A stretch of 64,000 nt of DNA from Micromonospora sp. MW-13 (GTDB taxonomy: Bacteria; Actinomycetota; Actinomycetes; Mycobacteriales; Micromonosporaceae). Location: positions 1-64,000 of the forward strand of contig NZ_QKKX01000005.1 in the NCBI RefSeq assembly GCF_003434305.1, given 5' to 3'. Made by a program: the position numbers and the translations under genes. Under the pieces are notes generated by a model, which was not told where the DNA came from, did not search any database, and saw only the letters and a program-made list of their open reading frames with translations. Each line of letters opens with the position of its first letter. Position 1 is the first letter of the stretch. This document shows, piece by piece, positions 2,547 through 50,142 of the stretch.

Positions 2547-3477
2547 AGCGGATCCTCGGGTCGAGTACGGCGTACAGGACGTCCACCACCAGGTTGGACA
2601 CGAGGTAGACCACGACGAGCACGCTGACGATGCCCACCACCAGGGGGCCGTCCTCGGTGCGGATGCCGCGAAACAGGTTGAACCCGACGCCGGGGATGTT
2701 GAACACGCCCTCGGTGATGATCGCGCCGCTCATCAGGTTGCCCAGCTCGACGCCGAGGAAGGTGACCACCGGGATGAGCGAGTTGCGCAGCACGTGCACG
2801 CCGACGATCCGTCGTTTGACCAGGCCCTTCGACCGGGCGGTGCGGACGTAGTCGGCGCGTAGGTTCTCCGCGACCGAGGTCCGGGTCAGCCGCAGTGCGG
2901 TGGCCAGCGACAGCGAACCGAGCACGATGCCGGGCAGCAGCAGCGCGTACAGGTCGGGGTCGGCGCCGGCGGTGGGCGGGAAGAGCTGCCACCTGACGCC
3001 GAGGAGGTACTGGGCGAGCGGGGCCAGCACGATCGTCGGGATGCCGAGCACCAGCAGGGTGAGCACCAGCGTCGCGTTGTCGAAGATGCCGGCCCGCCGG
3101 ATGCCGGCGATCACGCCGGCGGTGACCCCGAAGACGATCGTCACCGCCATGGCGATCAGCGCGAGCTTCACGGTGACCGGCCAGGCGGCGGCGAGGATGT
3201 CGCCGATCTGCCGGCCGGTCAGCGACTGCCCCAGGTCGCCCTGGAGCAGGTTCTTCAGGTAGTCGAAGTAGCGGTAGAAGAAGCCGCCGACACCGGTGGC
3301 GTCGAGGTGGAACTTCTCCGTCAGGTATGCCCGCTGGGCGGCGGTGACCGGACGTTCCCCCGCGAGCGCCTGGATCGGGTCGCCCTGACCGGCGAACATC
3401 AGCGCGTAGACGATCAGCGTGGTCCCGAAGAAGGCGAGAACCATCTGGAGCAGTCGCCGCAGAATGAAGCGGAGCAT
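2539..3477 (-). CDS. Peptide ABC transporter permease, DppB/OppB type
   Basis: The first permease of the minus-strand importer has 312 residues. It starts MLRFILRRLLQMVLAFFGTT, the standard DppB N-terminus (cytoplasmic Arg-rich tip followed by a membrane helix). The long extracytoplasmic region before the second helix and the EAA-type loop (YVRTARSKGLVKRRIVGVHV) are present. The C-terminus ends VLDPRIRYE, typical of the family. It lies 83 bases downstream of the binding-protein gene, and a strong hairpin occupies that gap. Confidence 0.93.
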   Translation of the reverse strand: MLRFILRRLLQMVLAFFGTTLIVYALMFAGQGDPIQALAGERPVTAAQRAYLTEKFHLDATGVGGFFYRYFDYLKNLLQGDLGQSLTGRQIGDILAAAWPVTVKLALIAMAVTIVFGVTAGVIAGIRRAGIFDNATLVLTLLVLGIPTIVLAPLAQYLLGVRWQLFPPTAGADPDLYALLLPGIVLGSLSLATALRLTRTSVAENLRADYVRTARSKGLVKRRIVGVHVLRNSLIPVVTFLGVELGNLMSGAIITEGVFNIPGVGFNLFRGIRTEDGPLVVGIVSVLVVVYLVSNLVVDVLYAVLDPRIRYE

Positions 3478-35561: not shown

Positions 35562-36002
35562 GTGCAGACCGAACGGGCCAGCGAGGGCGGACAGACCGAA
35601 CGACAGGAACCGAAGGTGATCGTCGGCGCGGCGATCATCGCGGACGGACGGGTGCTCGCCTGCGCCCGGTCCGCCCCGCCCGAGGTCGCCGGGAGGTGGG
35701 AGTTCCCGGGCGGCAAGGTGGAGCCGGGGGAGAGCGAGACCGCCGCGCTGGTCCGCGAGTGCGCCGAGGAACTGGCCGTACGCGTGGAGGTCGGTGACCG
35801 GGTCGGCCGCAACGTGCGGATGGCCCACGGCCGTTCCGTGCTCAAGGTGTACGCCGCCCGCCTGCTGCACGGCGACCAGCCGCAGGCCCTGGAACACTCC
35901 GCCCTGCGCTGGCTGTCCGCCCACGAACTCGACACGGTCACCTGGCTTCCCGCCGACGCCCCAATCGTCGCCGCCCTGCGCCCGCTGCTCGCCGCCGACT
36001 GA
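35562..36002 (+). CDS. MutT-like Nudix hydrolase
   Basis: A 146-residue NTP pyrophosphohydrolase. The Nudix box is GGKVEPGESETAALVRECAEEL, matching G-x5-E-x7-R-E-U-x-E-E except that the final Gly position is Ala. The preceding WEFPGG is typical of MutT/CTP pyrophosphohydrolase types that clear oxidized nucleotides. The GTG start is the only one ahead of the conserved strand KVIVGAAIIADGRVL. Its last nine codons are duplicated just after the stop. Confidence 0.88.
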   Translation: MQTERASEGGQTERQEPKVIVGAAIIADGRVLACARSAPPEVAGRWEFPGGKVEPGESETAALVRECAEELAVRVEVGDRVGRNVRMAHGRSVLKVYAARLLHGDQPQALEHSALRWLSAHELDTVTWLPADAPIVAALRPLLAAD

Positions 36003-36033
36003 CCGGGCCCGCTGCTCGCCGCCGACTGAACGG
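35980..36033. repeat. 27-bp tandem duplication at the 3' end of the Nudix gene
   Basis: The last coding bases, the stop codon and a few bases beyond (starting GCCCGCTGCTCGCCGCCGAC) are repeated head to tail with a single C-to-A difference. The second copy lies wholly downstream of the stop. This is a recent small duplication with no effect on the protein. Confidence 0.85.
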
Positions 36034-43896: not shown

Positions 43897-43936
43897 TTGT
43901 AGCTTAGTTTCAGCCCCAGTGATCTGTTGTAGTTTC
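43897..43936 (+). promoter_or_regulatory. Direct repeats upstream of the second importer operon
   Basis: TTGTAGCTTAGTTTC and TTGTAGTTTC, 30 bases apart in an unusually A+T-rich stretch, precede the first gene of the plus-strand importer. They could be regulator half-sites or contain the -35 box. The exact promoter cannot be fixed by eye. Confidence 0.4.
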
Positions 43937-43960
43937 TCTTCGTCACTGAGGGAGGCGGTC

Positions 43961-45064
43961 GTGGACAAGCCAGCATCGGCGCCGTCCGGGCAACCGGGCG
44001 ACCGCCCCGGCGTGCCGGAGCAGCGCGGCGACGGGCCGTACCTGCGGGTCAGCGACCTGCGGGTGCGCTTCGCCACGGAGGACGGCACGGTCCGCGCGGT
44101 GGACGGGGTCTCCTTCGCCGTGGAGCGCGGGCGCACCCTCGGCATCGTCGGCGAGTCCGGCTCCGGCAAGAGCGTCACCTCGCTGGCCGTGCTCGGGCTG
44201 CACGATCCGAAGCGCGCCACCATCACCGGCGGGATCTCCGTCGGTGGCCGGCAGCTCGTCGGCCTGCCCGAGGAGGAGATCCGCCGGCTGCGCGGCCGGG
44301 ACATGGCGATGATCTTCCAGGACCCGCTGTCGGCGCTGCACCCGTACTACACGGTGGGCAGGCAGATCGCCGAGGCGTACCGGGTGCACCACCCCCGGGC
44401 CGGCCGGCGGGAGGCCCGGCGGCGGGCCGTCGACATGCTCGGCCGGGTCGGCATTCCGCAGCCGGCGAAGCGGTACGACCAGTACCCGCACGAGTTCTCC
44501 GGCGGCATGCGGCAGCGGGCGATGATCGCCATGGCGCTGGTCAACGACCCCGACCTGCTGATCGCCGACGAGCCGACCACCGCGCTGGACGTCACCGTGC
44601 AGGCGCAGATCCTGGACCTGCTCGCCGACCTCCAGGCCGAGTTCCACTCCGCGATCATCCTGATCACCCACGACCTCGGCGTGGTCGGCCAGGTCGCCGA
44701 CGAGGTGCTGGTGATGTACGGCGGCCGGGCCGTCGAGCAGGGCAGCGTGGAGCAGGTGCTCCGGCGCCCGCAGCACCCGTACACCTGGGGCCTGCTCTCC
44801 AGCGTGCCGGCGCTGCACGGCGACGCGGACGCGGACCTGGTGCCGATCGCGGGCAACCCGCCCAGCCTGATCAACCTGCCGGCGGGCTGCGCCTTCCACC
44901 CCCGCTGCCGGTACGCCGACCGCACCGGCGGCCGGTCGCGCGCCGAGGTCCCGCCGCTGGGTCCGGCCGGCGAGGCCGGTCAACTGGTCGCCTGCCACCT
45001 GACCGCCCGGGAGCGCACCCTGCTGTACCGCGAGGACGTCGCACACGTGGGGGTGGCCCGGTGA
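43961..45064 (+). CDS. Peptide ABC transporter ATPase, DppD/OppD type (second operon)
   Basis: First gene of the plus-strand importer, 367 residues. It has an N-terminal 30-residue Pro/Gly extension, Walker A GESGSGKS, Q-loop IFQDPLSALHPYYTVG, signature FSGGMRQR, Walker B LLIADEPTT and H-loop. The C-terminal cysteine motif is incomplete: GCAFHPRC and VACHL remain, but the usual third Cys is lost (ADRTGGRSR). GTG start with GGGAGG upstream. Its TGA overlaps the GTG of the first of three mini-ORFs. Confidence 0.92.
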   Translation: MDKPASAPSGQPGDRPGVPEQRGDGPYLRVSDLRVRFATEDGTVRAVDGVSFAVERGRTLGIVGESGSGKSVTSLAVLGLHDPKRATITGGISVGGRQLVGLPEEEIRRLRGRDMAMIFQDPLSALHPYYTVGRQIAEAYRVHHPRAGRREARRRAVDMLGRVGIPQPAKRYDQYPHEFSGGMRQRAMIAMALVNDPDLLIADEPTTALDVTVQAQILDLLADLQAEFHSAIILITHDLGVVGQVADEVLVMYGGRAVEQGSVEQVLRRPQHPYTWGLLSSVPALHGDADADLVPIAGNPPSLINLPAGCAFHPRCRYADRTGGRSRAEVPPLGPAGEAGQLVACHLTARERTLLYREDVAHVGVAR

Positions 45065-45241
45065 GCGCGAGGAACGTAGCGGAGCGGAGTCCCGCAGTCG
45101 CGAACGAAGGTGGGCTCCGGTGAGCGCGAGGAACGTAGCGGAGCGGAGTCCCGCAGTCGCGAACGAAGGCAGGCCCTGGTGAGCGCGAGGAACGTAGCGG
45201 AGCGGAGTCCCGCAGTCGTGAACGAAGGCAGGCCCCAGTGA
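45061..45241 (+). repeat. Three 59-bp tandem repeats forming a chain of coupled mini-ORFs
   Basis: Each unit begins GTGAGCGCGAGGAACGTAGC and is identical over 50 bases (one change in unit 3), then has 9 variable bases. Every unit is a 20-codon ORF ([13 protein letters not shown]...) whose GTG overlaps the preceding TGA and whose TGA overlaps the next GTG. The chain starts at the dppD-type stop and ends at the dppF-type start. Because 59 is not a multiple of 3, the frame rotates with each unit. ORFs lie at 45061-45123, 45120-45182 and 45179-45241. Confidence 0.85.
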
Positions 45242-46245
45242 GTACCGAGCCGTTGCTGCGGGTCAGCGGGCTGACCAAGCACTTCCCGGTGCGCAGCGGG
45301 TTCCGCGCCACCGGGCTGGTGCGGGCCGTCGACGGCCTGGACTTCGAGGTGCGCCCCGGGGAGACGCTGGGCCTGGTGGGGGAGTCCGGCTGCGGCAAGA
45401 CCACCGCCGGCCGGATGCTGGTGCGGCTGCTGGAGCCGACCGCCGGGCGGATCGAGTTCGCCGGCCGGGACATCACCCACGCCGGGCGGCGCGAGCTGCG
45501 CCCGTTGCGCCAGGACCTCCAGATCATCTTCCAGGACCCGTACGCCTCGCTGAACCCCCGGCACACCGTCGGCCGGATCGTGGCGATGCCGTTGCACGTC
45601 AACGGGATCGACCCGCCGGGCGGGGTGCGCAAGCGGGTGCAGGAGCTGCTGGAGCTGGTCGGGCTCAACCCCGAGCACTACAACCGCTACCCGCACGAGT
45701 TCTCCGGCGGGCAGCGGCAGCGCATCGGCATCGCCCGGGCGCTGGCCCTGCGGCCGAAGCTGATCGTCGCCGACGAGCCGGTCTCCGCCCTGGACGTGTC
45801 GATCCAGGCCCAGGTGGTCAACCTGCTCCGGGACCTGCAACGGGACCTCGGGCTGGCGTTCGTCTTCATCGCCCACGACCTGGCCGTGGTGCGGCACTTC
45901 TGCCAGCGGGTCGCGGTGATGTACCTGGGCCGGATCGTGGAGATCGGCGACCGGGCGGACATCTACGAGCGCCCGCAGCACCCGTACACCCGGGCCCTGC
46001 TGTCGGCGATCCCGGACGTGACGACGCTCGGGCCGGGCGGCCGGATCCGGCTGACCGGCGACGTGCCGACCCCGCTGAACCCGCCGTCGGGCTGCCGGTT
46101 CCGCACCCGCTGCTGGAAGGCGCAGGACGTCTGCGCGACCGAGGAGCCGGCCCTGGTGCCCCGGGACGGCGGCGCGCAGTCGACTGCCTGCCACTTCCCG
46201 GAGTCCGAGCGGGCCGGCGTGAGCGGTGCGGAGGTGACGAGGTGA
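45238..46245 (+). CDS. Peptide ABC transporter ATPase, DppF/OppF type (second operon)
   Basis: Second ATPase, 335 residues. Walker [11 protein letters not shown]-loop [16 protein letters not shown], signature FSGGQRQR, Walker [13 protein letters not shown] and H-loop FIAHDLAVV are all OppF-type. The four C-terminal cysteines are intact ([17 protein letters not shown]). The GTG overlaps the stop of the third mini-ORF, and its own TGA overlaps the next GTG (GTGA), so translation is coupled throughout. Confidence 0.94.
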
Positions 46246-47249
46246 GCCTGTCCCCGGTCGAGGGCGTGGCGCTGGCGGAGATCGAGTCCACCGGCGACGG
46301 TGCCGCGCCGAAGGCGAAGGGGTTCGTCGGCCGGTCGCCCGGCCAGCTCGCCTGGGCCCGGCTGCGGCGGGACCGAACCGCCATGGTCAGCGCCGGCATG
46401 CTGGCCTTCTTCGTGCTGGTCGCCCTCGCCGTGCCGCTGATCCAGGCGCTGTACGGGGTGGGCCCGCGCGAGCAGTTCCAGACCCGCCTCGACGGCTTCG
46501 GCATGCCGCTGGGGTATGCCGGGGGCATCAGCGGCGAGCACTGGTTCGGGCTGGAGCCGGGCCTGGGCCGGGACATCTTCATCCGGATGGTGCACGGCCT
46601 GCGGACGTCGCTGTTCATCGCGTTCGCCGCCGCCGTGATCACCGCCGCGATCGGCATCGTGCTGGGCACCCTCGCCGGCTACCTGGGCGGCTGGCTCGAT
46701 GCGGTGATCAACTGGATCACCGACCTGACCCTGGCCATGCCGTTCCTGATCATCGCGCTGGCGCTGACCCCGACCGTCGCGCTGCGCTTCTACGGCCAGC
46801 GCGAGGCGGTGCCGGCCGCGTTCCAGATCGGCGTGCTGATCGCCGTCTTCGCCCTCTTCGGCTGGACCAGCACCGCCCGGCTGGTCCGGGGGCAGGTCAT
46901 CGCGCTGCGCGAGCGGGAGTTCGTGGAGGCGGCCCGGGCCAGCGGCGCCGGGCTGGGGCACATGCTGTTCCGTCAGCTCCTGCCGAACATCTGGGCGCCG
47001 ATCCTGGTGTCGTTCTCCCTCGCGGTGCCGTCGTACATCACCAGCGAGGCGGCGCTGTCGTTCATCGGCGTCGGGCTCACCGACGAGACGCCGAGCTTCG
47101 GCCGGATGATCTACCGCAGCCTGGACTACCTCCAGACCGACCCGGCGTACGTCTTCTTCCCCGGCATCACGATCTTCGCGCTGGTGTTCGCCTTCAACCT
47201 CTTCGGGGACGCGCTGCGCGACGCGCTCGACCCGAAGTCGTCCCGGTAG
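46242..47249 (+). CDS. Peptide ABC transporter permease, DppC/OppC type (second operon)
   Basis: A 335-residue permease with a 45-residue cytoplasmic N-terminus, six predicted helices and the DppC pattern [23 protein letters not shown]-type loop ([21 protein letters not shown]) and [15 protein letters not shown]. It is GTG-started and coupled to the ATPase gene. The permease order (C before B) is reversed relative to the minus-strand operon. Confidence 0.93.
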
Positions 47250-47259
47250 GGGTTTCGCC

Positions 47260-48246
47260 ATGGTGCGGTTCCTGGTCAAGCGGCTGCTCTCCGCCGCGCT
47301 CACCCTGTTCGCGGTGAGCGTGTTCAGCTTCCTGATGTTCTTCGCCCTGCCCCGGGACCCGGTCACCGGCATGTGCCCGAAGAACTGCAACCCGGAGCGA
47401 CTGGAGCGGGTCCGGCAGGAACTGGGCCTGCGCGACCCGCTGATCACCCAGTACGCGGGCTACATGAAGGGCATCGTCACCGGTCGGGACCTGGGCAGCG
47501 CCCAGGGCGGCCGGTGCGACGCCCCCTGCCTGGGCTGGTCGTACGTCACCAACGAGGCGGTCAGCGACACCATCGCCCGGGTGCTGCCGGTGACGCTGAG
47601 CATCGTGATCCCGGCGGCGATCCTCTGGCTGCTGCTCGGTGTCGGCCTCGGCATGGTCTCGGCGCTGCGCCGGGGCACCTGGCTGGACCGGCTGGCCATC
47701 GGCTTCTCGCTGACCGGCGCGTCGTTGCAGCTCTACTTCGTCGGCGCGGTGCTGCTGCTGGTCTTCGTCTACAACCTGCGGCTGCTGCCGGTGCCGAGCT
47801 ACACGTCGCTGTTCGACAACCCGGTGAAGTGGGCCAGCGGGCTGGTGCTCGCCTGGGTCGCGCTGGCCTTCCTCTACTCCGCCATCTACGCCCGGCTGTC
47901 CCGGGCGCAGATGCTGGAGACGCTGTCCGAGGACTTCGTCCGCACCGCGCGGGCCAAGGGCCTGACCAAACCCAAGGTGTACGGGCGGCACGCGCTGCGC
48001 GCGGCGATCACCCCGGTGGTGACCATCGCGGGGCTGGACGTCGGCGGGGCGCTGGGCGGCACCGTCATCACCGAGACCACGTTCGGCATCCAGGGGCTGG
48101 GGCGTACCGCGGTGGACGCGGTCCGCGCCGGTGACCTGCCCACCATCATGGCCACCGTGCTCATCGCCGCGGTCTTCGTGGTGCTGGCCAACGTCCTGGT
48201 GGACCTGCTCTACGCCGCGATCGACCCCCGGGTGCGGCTGCGCTGA
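47260..48246 (+). CDS. Peptide ABC transporter permease, DppB/OppB type (second operon)
   Basis: A 328-residue permease: MVRFLVKRLLSAALTLFAVS N-terminal helix, a periplasmic loop with four Cys (GMCPKNC, GRCDAPC) that may form disulfides, the EAA-type loop (FVRTARAKGLTKPKVYGRHA) and the closing YAAIDPRVRLR. It lies 10 bases after dppC. A hairpin follows before the binding-protein gene. Confidence 0.93.
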   Translation: MVRFLVKRLLSAALTLFAVSVFSFLMFFALPRDPVTGMCPKNCNPERLERVRQELGLRDPLITQYAGYMKGIVTGRDLGSAQGGRCDAPCLGWSYVTNEAVSDTIARVLPVTLSIVIPAAILWLLLGVGLGMVSALRRGTWLDRLAIGFSLTGASLQLYFVGAVLLLVFVYNLRLLPVPSYTSLFDNPVKWASGLVLAWVALAFLYSAIYARLSRAQMLETLSEDFVRTARAKGLTKPKVYGRHALRAAITPVVTIAGLDVGGALGGTVITETTFGIQGLGRTAVDAVRAGDLPTIMATVLIAAVFVVLANVLVDLLYAAIDPRVRLR

Positions 48247-48281
48247 CGGCCGGCCGGTGGCGGGCGTCCGCCGGCCGGCCG
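48247..48281. terminator. Hairpin between permease and binding-protein genes (second operon)
   Basis: An 11-bp stem CGGCCGGCCGG with its complement starts at the first base after the permease stop. An A+T-rich stretch (about 48300-48345, with TTATCAAG and TTTACGAT) follows and may hold a separate promoter for the binding-protein gene. The hairpin could block read-through or protect mRNA. Confidence 0.5.
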
Positions 48282-48399
48282 CCCCTCCGACGGCGACGAA
48301 AGTTATCAAGAACCGTTACACAATCCGAAGGTTTTCTTCTTTACGATCCTCGGGACGTCGGCGTTCACGCCCGGCGGCACCGGGTGGAGGAGGTAGGAG

Positions 48400-50142
48400 A
48401 TGAGACCACGCGCAGCGGTCGCCGCAGGCGGCGCCATCGCACTGGTGGTGACGTTGGGGGCTTGCTCGGAGAACACGGGCGAGGGCACCACGGTGGACAA
48501 CACCCGGCAGCAGACCGGGGTCATCGCCACCGACCCGAAGGACTCGCGGGGCCCGGCGGCCGAGGTGGCCGGGGCGCAGAAGGGCGGCACCTTCACCATC
48601 ATCCGGGAGACCCCGATCTCCCACCTGGACCCGCAGCGGACGTACTCGTTCGCGGGCCTGATGGCCAACCCGCTCTTCGCCCGCTACCTGACCACCTGGA
48701 AGGACGACGGCAAGGGCGGCCTGGTCCTGGTCGGCGACCTGGCCGAGACCCCGGGCACCAACGTCAACTCCGACTGCAAGGTCTGGGAGTTCAAGATCAA
48801 GGACGGGGTGAAGTTCGAGGACGGCAGCCCGATCACCTCCAAGGAGATCGCGTACGGCATCGCCCGGTCCTTCGACCCGGACCTCGCCGGCGGCCCGACC
48901 TACCTCCAGGAGTGGCTGGCCGACAGCCCGGAGTTCGACACCAAGTGGGACTTCAAGAAGAACAAGACCTCGCTGCCGCCGGGGTTGACCGCCCCGGACG
49001 CGAAGACCCTGCGCTTCGAGTTCGCCAAGCCCCGCTGCGACCTGCCGTTCGCGGTGTCGCTGCCGACCACCGCGCCGCTGAAGGCAGACAAGGACACCGG
49101 GGTCAACCTGGACCAGCGGCCGTTCTCCTCCGGCCCGTACAAGGTCGCCAAGAACCAGGCCGGCGTGCAGCTCACCCTGGACCGCAACCCCAACTGGGAC
49201 GCCAGCACCGACCCGGTGCGCCACCAGTACCCGGACCAGTTCGTCTGGAGCTTCGGCCCGACCGCCGACGCCGCCAACAACCGGGTGATCGCCGACAACG
49301 GCGCCGACCAGAGCGCGATCGCCTTCAACTACGTGCCGTCCTCGCTGGTCGCCAGGGTGGCCCAGGACCAGGCGCTGAAGTCGCGGACCATCCTCTCCCC
49401 GACGCCGAGCGCCAACCAGCTCGTGATCAACAACCAGCGGGTCAAGGACCTGAAGATCCGCCAGGCGCTGAACTACGCCATCGACCGGGAGGGCCTGATC
49501 AAGGCGGTCGGCGGGCAGACCGTGGCCCAGCCGATGACCACGCTGATGCCGTCGTCCACCATCGGCTTCAAGGCGTTCGACGCGTACCCGGCGGGGGCGA
49601 ACGGCGACGTCGACAAGGCCAAGGAGCTGCTCGGCGGCCAGACCCCGGAGCTGGTCCTCGGGGTGGCCGACAACACGAGCGAGCAGGCGATGGCGATCCA
49701 GCTCAAGAGCAACCTGGAGCGGGCCGGCTTCAAGATCACTGTCCGGAACATCCCGGACGACGCGAAGCTCGACGAGGTCAAGAAGAAGGACAACCCCTGG
49801 GACCTGTACATCGGTAACTGGGCGGCGGACTGGCCCAGCGGGGCGTCCATCCTGCCGGTGCTCTACGACGGCCGGACCATCAAGGCCGAGGGCAACAGCA
49901 ACCAGTCGTACCTGAACGACCCGGCGATCAACGCCGAGTTCGACCGGATCCTCACCCTGGAGCCGGCGAAGCAGGGGCCGGAGTGGGCCAAGCTCGACGA
50001 GCGGATCATGAAGGAGCAGGCCCCGGTGGTGCCGCTCTACGTCGACGTGGCCTACGCCGTGCACGGCTCGAAGGCCGGCGGGGTCTTCATCTCCAGCGTC
50101 TTCGGCTACCCGTCCTTCGTGAACGCGCACGTCAAGCAGTGA
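48400..50142 (+). CDS. Peptide ABC transporter substrate-binding lipoprotein (second operon)
   Basis: A 580-residue family 5 solute-binding lipoprotein. Signal peptide and lipobox LGAC (Cys22) are followed by a long linker; the SBP core includes GGTFTIIRETPISHLDPQRT, KIKDGVKFEDGSPITSKEIAYG and LKIRQALNYAIDREGL. A strong GGAGGAGGTAGGAG precedes the ATG. It is the last gene of its operon, unlike the first importer where it is first. Just upstream of mshB, it sits where lpqW, a relative of such binding proteins, is found in mycobacteria. Confidence 0.92.
   Translation: MRPRAAVAAGGAIALVVTLGACSENTGEGTTVDNTRQQTGVIATDPKDSRGPAAEVAGAQKGGTFTIIRETPISHLDPQRTYSFAGLMANPLFARYLTTWKDDGKGGLVLVGDLAETPGTNVNSDCKVWEFKIKDGVKFEDGSPITSKEIAYGIARSFDPDLAGGPTYLQEWLADSPEFDTKWDFKKNKTSLPPGLTAPDAKTLRFEFAKPRCDLPFAVSLPTTAPLKADKDTGVNLDQRPFSSGPYKVAKNQAGVQLTLDRNPNWDASTDPVRHQYPDQFVWSFGPTADAANNRVIADNGADQSAIAFNYVPSSLVARVAQDQALKSRTILSPTPSANQLVINNQRVKDLKIRQALNYAIDREGLIKAVGGQTVAQPMTTLMPSSTIGFKAFDAYPAGANGDVDKAKELLGGQTPELVLGVADNTSEQAMAIQLKSNLERAGFKITVRNIPDDAKLDEVKKKDNPWDLYIGNWAADWPSGASILPVLYDGRTIKAEGNSNQSYLNDPAINAEFDRILTLEPAKQGPEWAKLDERIMKEQAPVVPLYVDVAYAVHGSKAGGVFISSVFGYPSFVNAHVKQ

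Follow-up and report, generated by a model that had tools for sequence, protein, structure and literature searches.

What separates the two ATPase genes of this transporter operon, and how could such a spacer arise without uncoupling them? The window, a 64,000-nucleotide stretch of a Micromonospora contig, contains three 59-bp units that lie head-to-tail at positions 45061–45237, in the same direction as the flanking transporter genes. On the forward strand, ORFs and protein matches place an OppD/DppD-like ABC transporter ATPase gene upstream (43919–45064) and an OppF/DppF-like ABC transporter ATPase gene downstream (45238–46245), followed by the remaining transporter cluster (46242–50142) with two permease-like ORFs (46242–47249 and 47260–48246) and a family 5 solute-binding protein (48400–50142). 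The original prediction described a chain of 20-codon ORFs linked by GTGA from the dppD-type stop to the dppF-type start, and this arrangement is confirmed. Each unit (45061–45119, 45120–45178 and 45179–45237) consists of a GTG and 19 further codons, with its TGA stop inside the following GTGA, giving mini-ORFs at 45061–45123, 45120–45182 and 45179–45241. The terminal TGA of the upstream ORF (45062–45064) falls inside the first GTGA of the array, and the GTG start of the downstream ORF at 45238 falls inside the last. The proposed division holds exactly: 50 bases are conserved apart from one substitution, and 9 vary. Units 1 and 2 have identical cores, that of unit 3 carries one C>T, and the tails differ among the three. 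The array heads the 23 rows that Tandem Repeats Finder returned for the window (period 59, 93% matches, score 330), and a core match at ≤3 mismatches arose in 0 of 100 dinucleotide-preserving shuffles. Elsewhere in the window, a 27-bp unit occurs twice at 35980–36033 (96%), with no obvious relation to the 59-bp units.

Similar units are dispersed over the host genome and the genus. A sequence profile built from 12 host units gave 70 matches at E≤1 and 61 at E≤1e-3 in the host genome (G000, 7.09 Mb), which fall into 42 groups, a few weak intragenic ones probably being chance. An nhmmer cut-off of 1e-3 reduced these groups to 34 arrays, 26 with an intact 5′ end and eight truncated at the 5′ end. 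Over 151 distinct units the core consensus reads GTGAGCGCGAGGAGTG, a variable middle, GAGCCCCGCAGTCGCGAACGAAAGG and a variable tail, followed by the next RTGA. Full scans of four other genomes found 32 (G085), 23 (G006), 19 (G011) and 18 (G255) matches, so that the five fully searched genomes range from 18 to 61, counts outside the host being possibly low because the profile derives from host units. An order-wide draw of 249 genomes, with stricter filters and 21 candidates scored per genome, returned a match in 39, including 34 of 34 Micromonospora genomes among those listed; no Micromonospora appeared among the 20 listed of the 210 match-free genomes. The other matches in this draw were found in two members of the host family (G101, 11 matches, best 4e-17; G267, 3 matches, best 2e-6) and in three further genomes with one marginal match each. 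The single plasmid record with the element was M. terminaliae pLB1, where one unit lies between two NCBI-annotated genes, and a phage search gave no match. Matches above 55 bits number 14 in the host genome and 0 in its close relative G011 (best 54.8), a comparison biased by the host-derived profile that hints at a recent burst. In one host region of about 9.3 kb (C22:29560–38879; L098, L117) there are four element sites, two of them degenerate.

This dispersal bears on whether the array could be a chance minisatellite, generated by slippage at the dppD–dppF junction only. Near-identity of the units within an array and variation in their number are what slippage would give, but the same unit is spread over genome and genus and its sites occur in an empty state (below). 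A slippage-only minisatellite was rejected on these grounds, and we consider this origin extremely unlikely; slippage may nevertheless multiply units once one is present.

We then surveyed the flanks of the host matches together with 60 regions of other Micromonospora genomes, taken from high-scoring matches and classified by codon-position G+C; the counts are not independent, since some of the relatives' regions represent one site in different species. In 71 of the 90 arrays whose 5′ end is intact (15 of 26 in the host, 56 of 64 in relatives), the stop of the upstream gene lies exactly in the first DTGA; in 84 (23 of 26 and 61 of 64) the array ends at a start codon that shares the frame of the downstream coding sequence, and in 79 of these the start is a DTGA. 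The upstream side of the other 19 shows no clear coding (12), a stop elsewhere (4), antisense coding (2) or too short a sequence (1), and the downstream side of the other 6 shows coding without a near start (4) or is unclear (2). As a control, 577 RTGA sites in the window were examined in the same way; 13 had such an upstream stop, 62 such a downstream start and 3 both. The idea of a modular element whose copies sit between overlapping stop and start codons is thus borne out in the host genome and the 60 regions from relatives, where copies mostly span the interval from upstream stop to downstream start. One exception to this placement is a 29-bit host copy (C6:38791–38843; L097) that lies antisense to both flanking genes.

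Units adjoin RTGA directly on its 5′ side, with no clear target duplication. The cleanest filled and empty pair at dppD–dppF, L059 with one 59-bp unit and L065 with none, places the insert immediately 5′ of ATGA: the empty site reads ATGA, and the filled site has GTGA at the left end and retains ATGA at the right. More generally, the base at the left end is G in 94% of 87 cases and the base at the right end is A in 19% of 81. Only TGA is repeated at the insert ends, and the unit itself carries one TGA, so a 3-bp duplication is compatible with these junctions. Antisense or convergent-intergenic copies are nearly absent from the surveyed set, from which we infer that insertion is targeted, rather than placement being due to selection alone.

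The original prediction had also proposed comparing copy number between strains, and in relatives the same dppD–dppF junction indeed has no unit or a different number of them. With copy numbers scored by eye on the sequences, here as at the arg junctions, the 29 scorable genomes comprise 18 that are unit-free, 7 that have one unit, 2 that have three and 2 that are remnant-like; the last two (L066, L067) were left out of the presence/absence count, and L077, with no DppD/DppF, was dropped. In 7 of the 18 empty junctions (L065, L068, L070, L071, L075, L078 and L080) the genes meet in a plain ATGA overlap and both proteins align end to end. The argJ–argB junction is empty in 22 of 30 genomes, with one unit in 6 and two units in 2. 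Trees of the flanking genes, in which many forks are weak, require at least 8 presence changes at dppD–dppF, at least 3 at argJ–argB and at least 7 at argB–argD. We also examined 80 named DppF loci among the matches listed, of which the two closest are the 2 from Micromonospora, and which are DppF relatives and not all proven orthologues: the element is absent from every one, and the genes overlap at a DTGA in 50, lack this overlap in 29 and are not adjacent in 1. Because the overlap is common in these loci and the element is missing from them, the filled junction is most likely the derived state. In one genome (G008, L055) the units at dppD–dppF end in GGCGAGAGGCGGCTGCC, nearly the same as the sequence preceding the start in the unit-free G037 (L067); the G008 tail is possibly a copy of the target sequence, or the sequence may be left over from an older unit.

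These alleles also speak to the suggestion that the array is a regulatory device, in which the number of units sets ribosome flow to the downstream gene and copy number tunes the DppD:DppF ratio under selection here. Copy number at the junction does range from 0 to 3, and one study describes a repeat array upstream of fpg1 in M. tuberculosis whose longer forms went with higher mRNA levels (PMC2734929). Set against this, L058 and L060, the nearest rows to the host in the dpp tree, are both empty, and the same units precede many unrelated genes. We consider tuning at this junction improbable.

If units are inserted into coupled junctions, their lengths should matter. Measured from the GTG of the last unit to the gene start, the distance is 53 (1 case), 56 (3), 59 (58), 62 (13) or 65 (2) in the 77 of 83 last units that hold the stop-on-start register, the TGA itself lying on the start codon in 74. 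The remaining 6 are fused in frame to the gene (distances 57, 60 and 63), and the uncoupled register does not occur. Unit-to-unit spacings (n=44) behave likewise: 29 keep the overlap register, 15 are in frame and 0 are uncoupled. When the end of each of the 151 distinct units is taken as the first DTGA 50–69 bases downstream, the overlap register accounts for 129, in-frame spacing for 21 and the uncoupled register for 1 (L063). The lengths of the 5′ part and of the tail compensate for each other across these units, the observed counts being reached in 0 of 10,000 shuffles. On the 17 distinct length combinations, the same test is weak (264 of 10,000 for the uncoupled class and 2299 of 10,000 for the overlap class) because units share descent.

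Could the 20-residue peptide itself be functional, and be what is conserved? The absence of a premature stop from 150 of the 151 distinct units is in keeping with this, as are the 101 units of 59 bp, in which the distinct variants (22 amino-acid-changing, 13 silent) give a ratio of 0.55 per site. However, each of the other two frames is also open in most of the 151 units (129 and 125), residues in the tail vary freely, and unit-free genomes are common at a site. A functional peptide thus has a slim chance at best, and, with the other frames mostly open too, it is the lengths and not openness that carry the argument for a constrained register.

The sequences around the mini-ORFs resemble ribosome-binding sites. 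A GGGGG at 45049–45053, 8–12 bases 5′ of the first GTG, is a probable native Shine-Dalgarno sequence, and the left flanks of 87 arrays are likewise G-rich at −12 to −8, as expected if the GTG of the element replaced the native start. Within the array, core 1 ends in GAAGG (45106–45110), a motif that recurs at 45165–45169 and 45224–45228, all on the forward strand, and that could serve as a Shine-Dalgarno-like stretch for the next start. Pairing with what we take to be the anti-Shine-Dalgarno sequence averages −7.21 kcal/mol for the tails of the 151 units versus −5.28 kcal/mol for 37 empty sites; the mean is −6.10 kcal/mol for shuffled tails and −3.87 kcal/mol for 2000 random 20-mers. Base composition explains much of this signal. 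Judged from sequence, the unit tails look like a portable, Shine-Dalgarno-like ribosome-binding site.

We found little sign of the secondary structure expected of a hairpin-type element, whether REP, MITE or some other structured repeat, in which the reading frame would be incidental. The units are short, dispersed, G+C-rich and non-autonomous, like such repeats, and one consensus-like unit has a DNA fold with a z-score of −1.84 (7 of 200 shuffles as good). The other DNA folds score about 0, however, no RNA fold is significant (z-scores −1.19 to +0.69), and the length register is constrained. The Y1 transposase family (PF01797), present in 8 of 21 Micromonospora genomes, has 0 matches in the host genome. 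A structured RNA or hairpin element was rejected on its folds, as was a resident Y1 transposase as the mover for want of a PF01797 match, and we regard a hairpin-type origin as very unlikely.

Taken together, we think it likely that the array consists of three copies of a short, dispersed, mobile Micromonospora element that is translation-neutral and inserts 5′ of RTGA, nearly always at a start codon. Each unit carries a frame of about 20 open codons that begins at a GTG, together with a Shine-Dalgarno-like tail, and has no stop of its own, the stop being supplied by the TGA in the RTGA that opens the next unit or gene. After insertion, the upstream gene would terminate in the first GTGA of the unit, the native ribosome-binding site would drive the mini-ORF, and the mini-ORF would in turn terminate on the native start of the downstream gene. 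Ribosomes arriving from the upstream gene, or loaded at the native site, may translate the mini-ORFs one after another, reinitiating at every overlapping start with help from the Shine-Dalgarno-like stretch in the tail. Since this passage from stop to start could run through one unit or many, added units would cost the operon little, and the neighbouring genes are probably still translated. The element itself would be moved in trans.

A minority of copies are inserted in frame into protein genes. At argB–argD, units share the frame of argB and lie a few bases 5′ of the argD start, so that they extend the C terminus of ArgB while the extension still ends on the argD start. This extension, of 1 to 4 units, occurs in 7 of 30 genomes, with remnants in L283, L287 and L293 counted as empty; in the host it comprises two 54-bp units (C61:108883–109001; L114, about 2995–3113). 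Three further 54-bp units lie in frame within host pyrC (C61:64363–64516; L092:2001–2154), whose product scores above the NCBIfam cut-offs for dihydroorotase. The PyrC segment is missing from 15 of the 29 scored genomes (L343 was left out), is present as one 18-residue unit in 12 and as a 13-residue part in 1, and reaches three units in the host. Divergence among the twelve one-unit loops is 0.163 at amino-acid-changing sites and 0.367 at silent ones, a pattern suggesting that the segment is now evolving as protein.

How does this family compare with known elements? Its layout is closest to that of mycobacterial MIRUs, on which Supply et al. are said to have reported in 1997. As described, MIRUs are units of 40–100 bp, tandem, dispersed and variable in copy number (PMC12548453, PMC4213456, PMC2734929, PMC3635867), which appear mobile and insert at start codons, an internal ORF coupling to the gene at −4 nt spacing (PMC12548453, a 2025 review). 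The Micromonospora units are also short, tandem, dispersed at gene junctions and variable in copy number, and they share start-codon insertion and coupling, 74 of 83 last units putting TGA on the start codon. They differ in their host, and the comparison made here is one of layout, through published MIRU descriptions; there was no strong match outside the host family in the order-wide sample, which may contain no MIRU-bearing species. By this analogy, the Micromonospora element appears to work like MIRUs, and its coupling-preserving logic is already published. What is added are the empty and filled alleles, frame compensation, and units inside PyrC and at the end of ArgB.

In-frame insertion into proteins has its own precedent in the Rickettsia palindromic elements (RPEs), which are described as palindromic, about 150 bp long and inserted into protein genes with a conserved peptide frame (PMC10969869). 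The units in PyrC and ArgB share this behaviour, whereas the Micromonospora units are 53–65 bp long, have no significant fold and lie mostly at start codons rather than within genes. REP elements are short non-autonomous repeats mobilised by Y1 (RAYT) transposases. Both they and the Micromonospora units are short and non-autonomous, and insertion beside a short motif without duplication would fit Y1 chemistry; in contrast to REP elements, the units have no significant hairpin and the host genome has no Y1 transposase. We found no description of this unit family in the Micromonospora literature, with thin coverage of subscription journals. As far as we searched, the family, its empty and filled sites, its frame compensation and its in-frame insertion in proteins (PyrC and the ArgB tail) are new.

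A wider proposal can be offered tentatively, at somewhat less than even expectation that it holds. Start codons (RTGA) would be the target of a genus-wide mobile element that has no recognisable transposase and whose first bases re-create that target, allowing arrays to grow at their ends. Built to be translated through, it would also feed segments into proteins, with a lasting loop in dihydroorotase, and it would form a translation-compatible class uniting MIRU and RPE behaviour.

Coupling-preserving insertion elements probably occur outside mycobacteria, here with dozens of matches per genome and clean empty and filled alleles. The family makes it possible to test near-lossless stop-start reinitiation through serial mini-ORFs, the movement of such elements without a known transposase, and how often units become protein segments. 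For the genus itself, annotated gene starts and protein ends in Micromonospora may contain element sequence.
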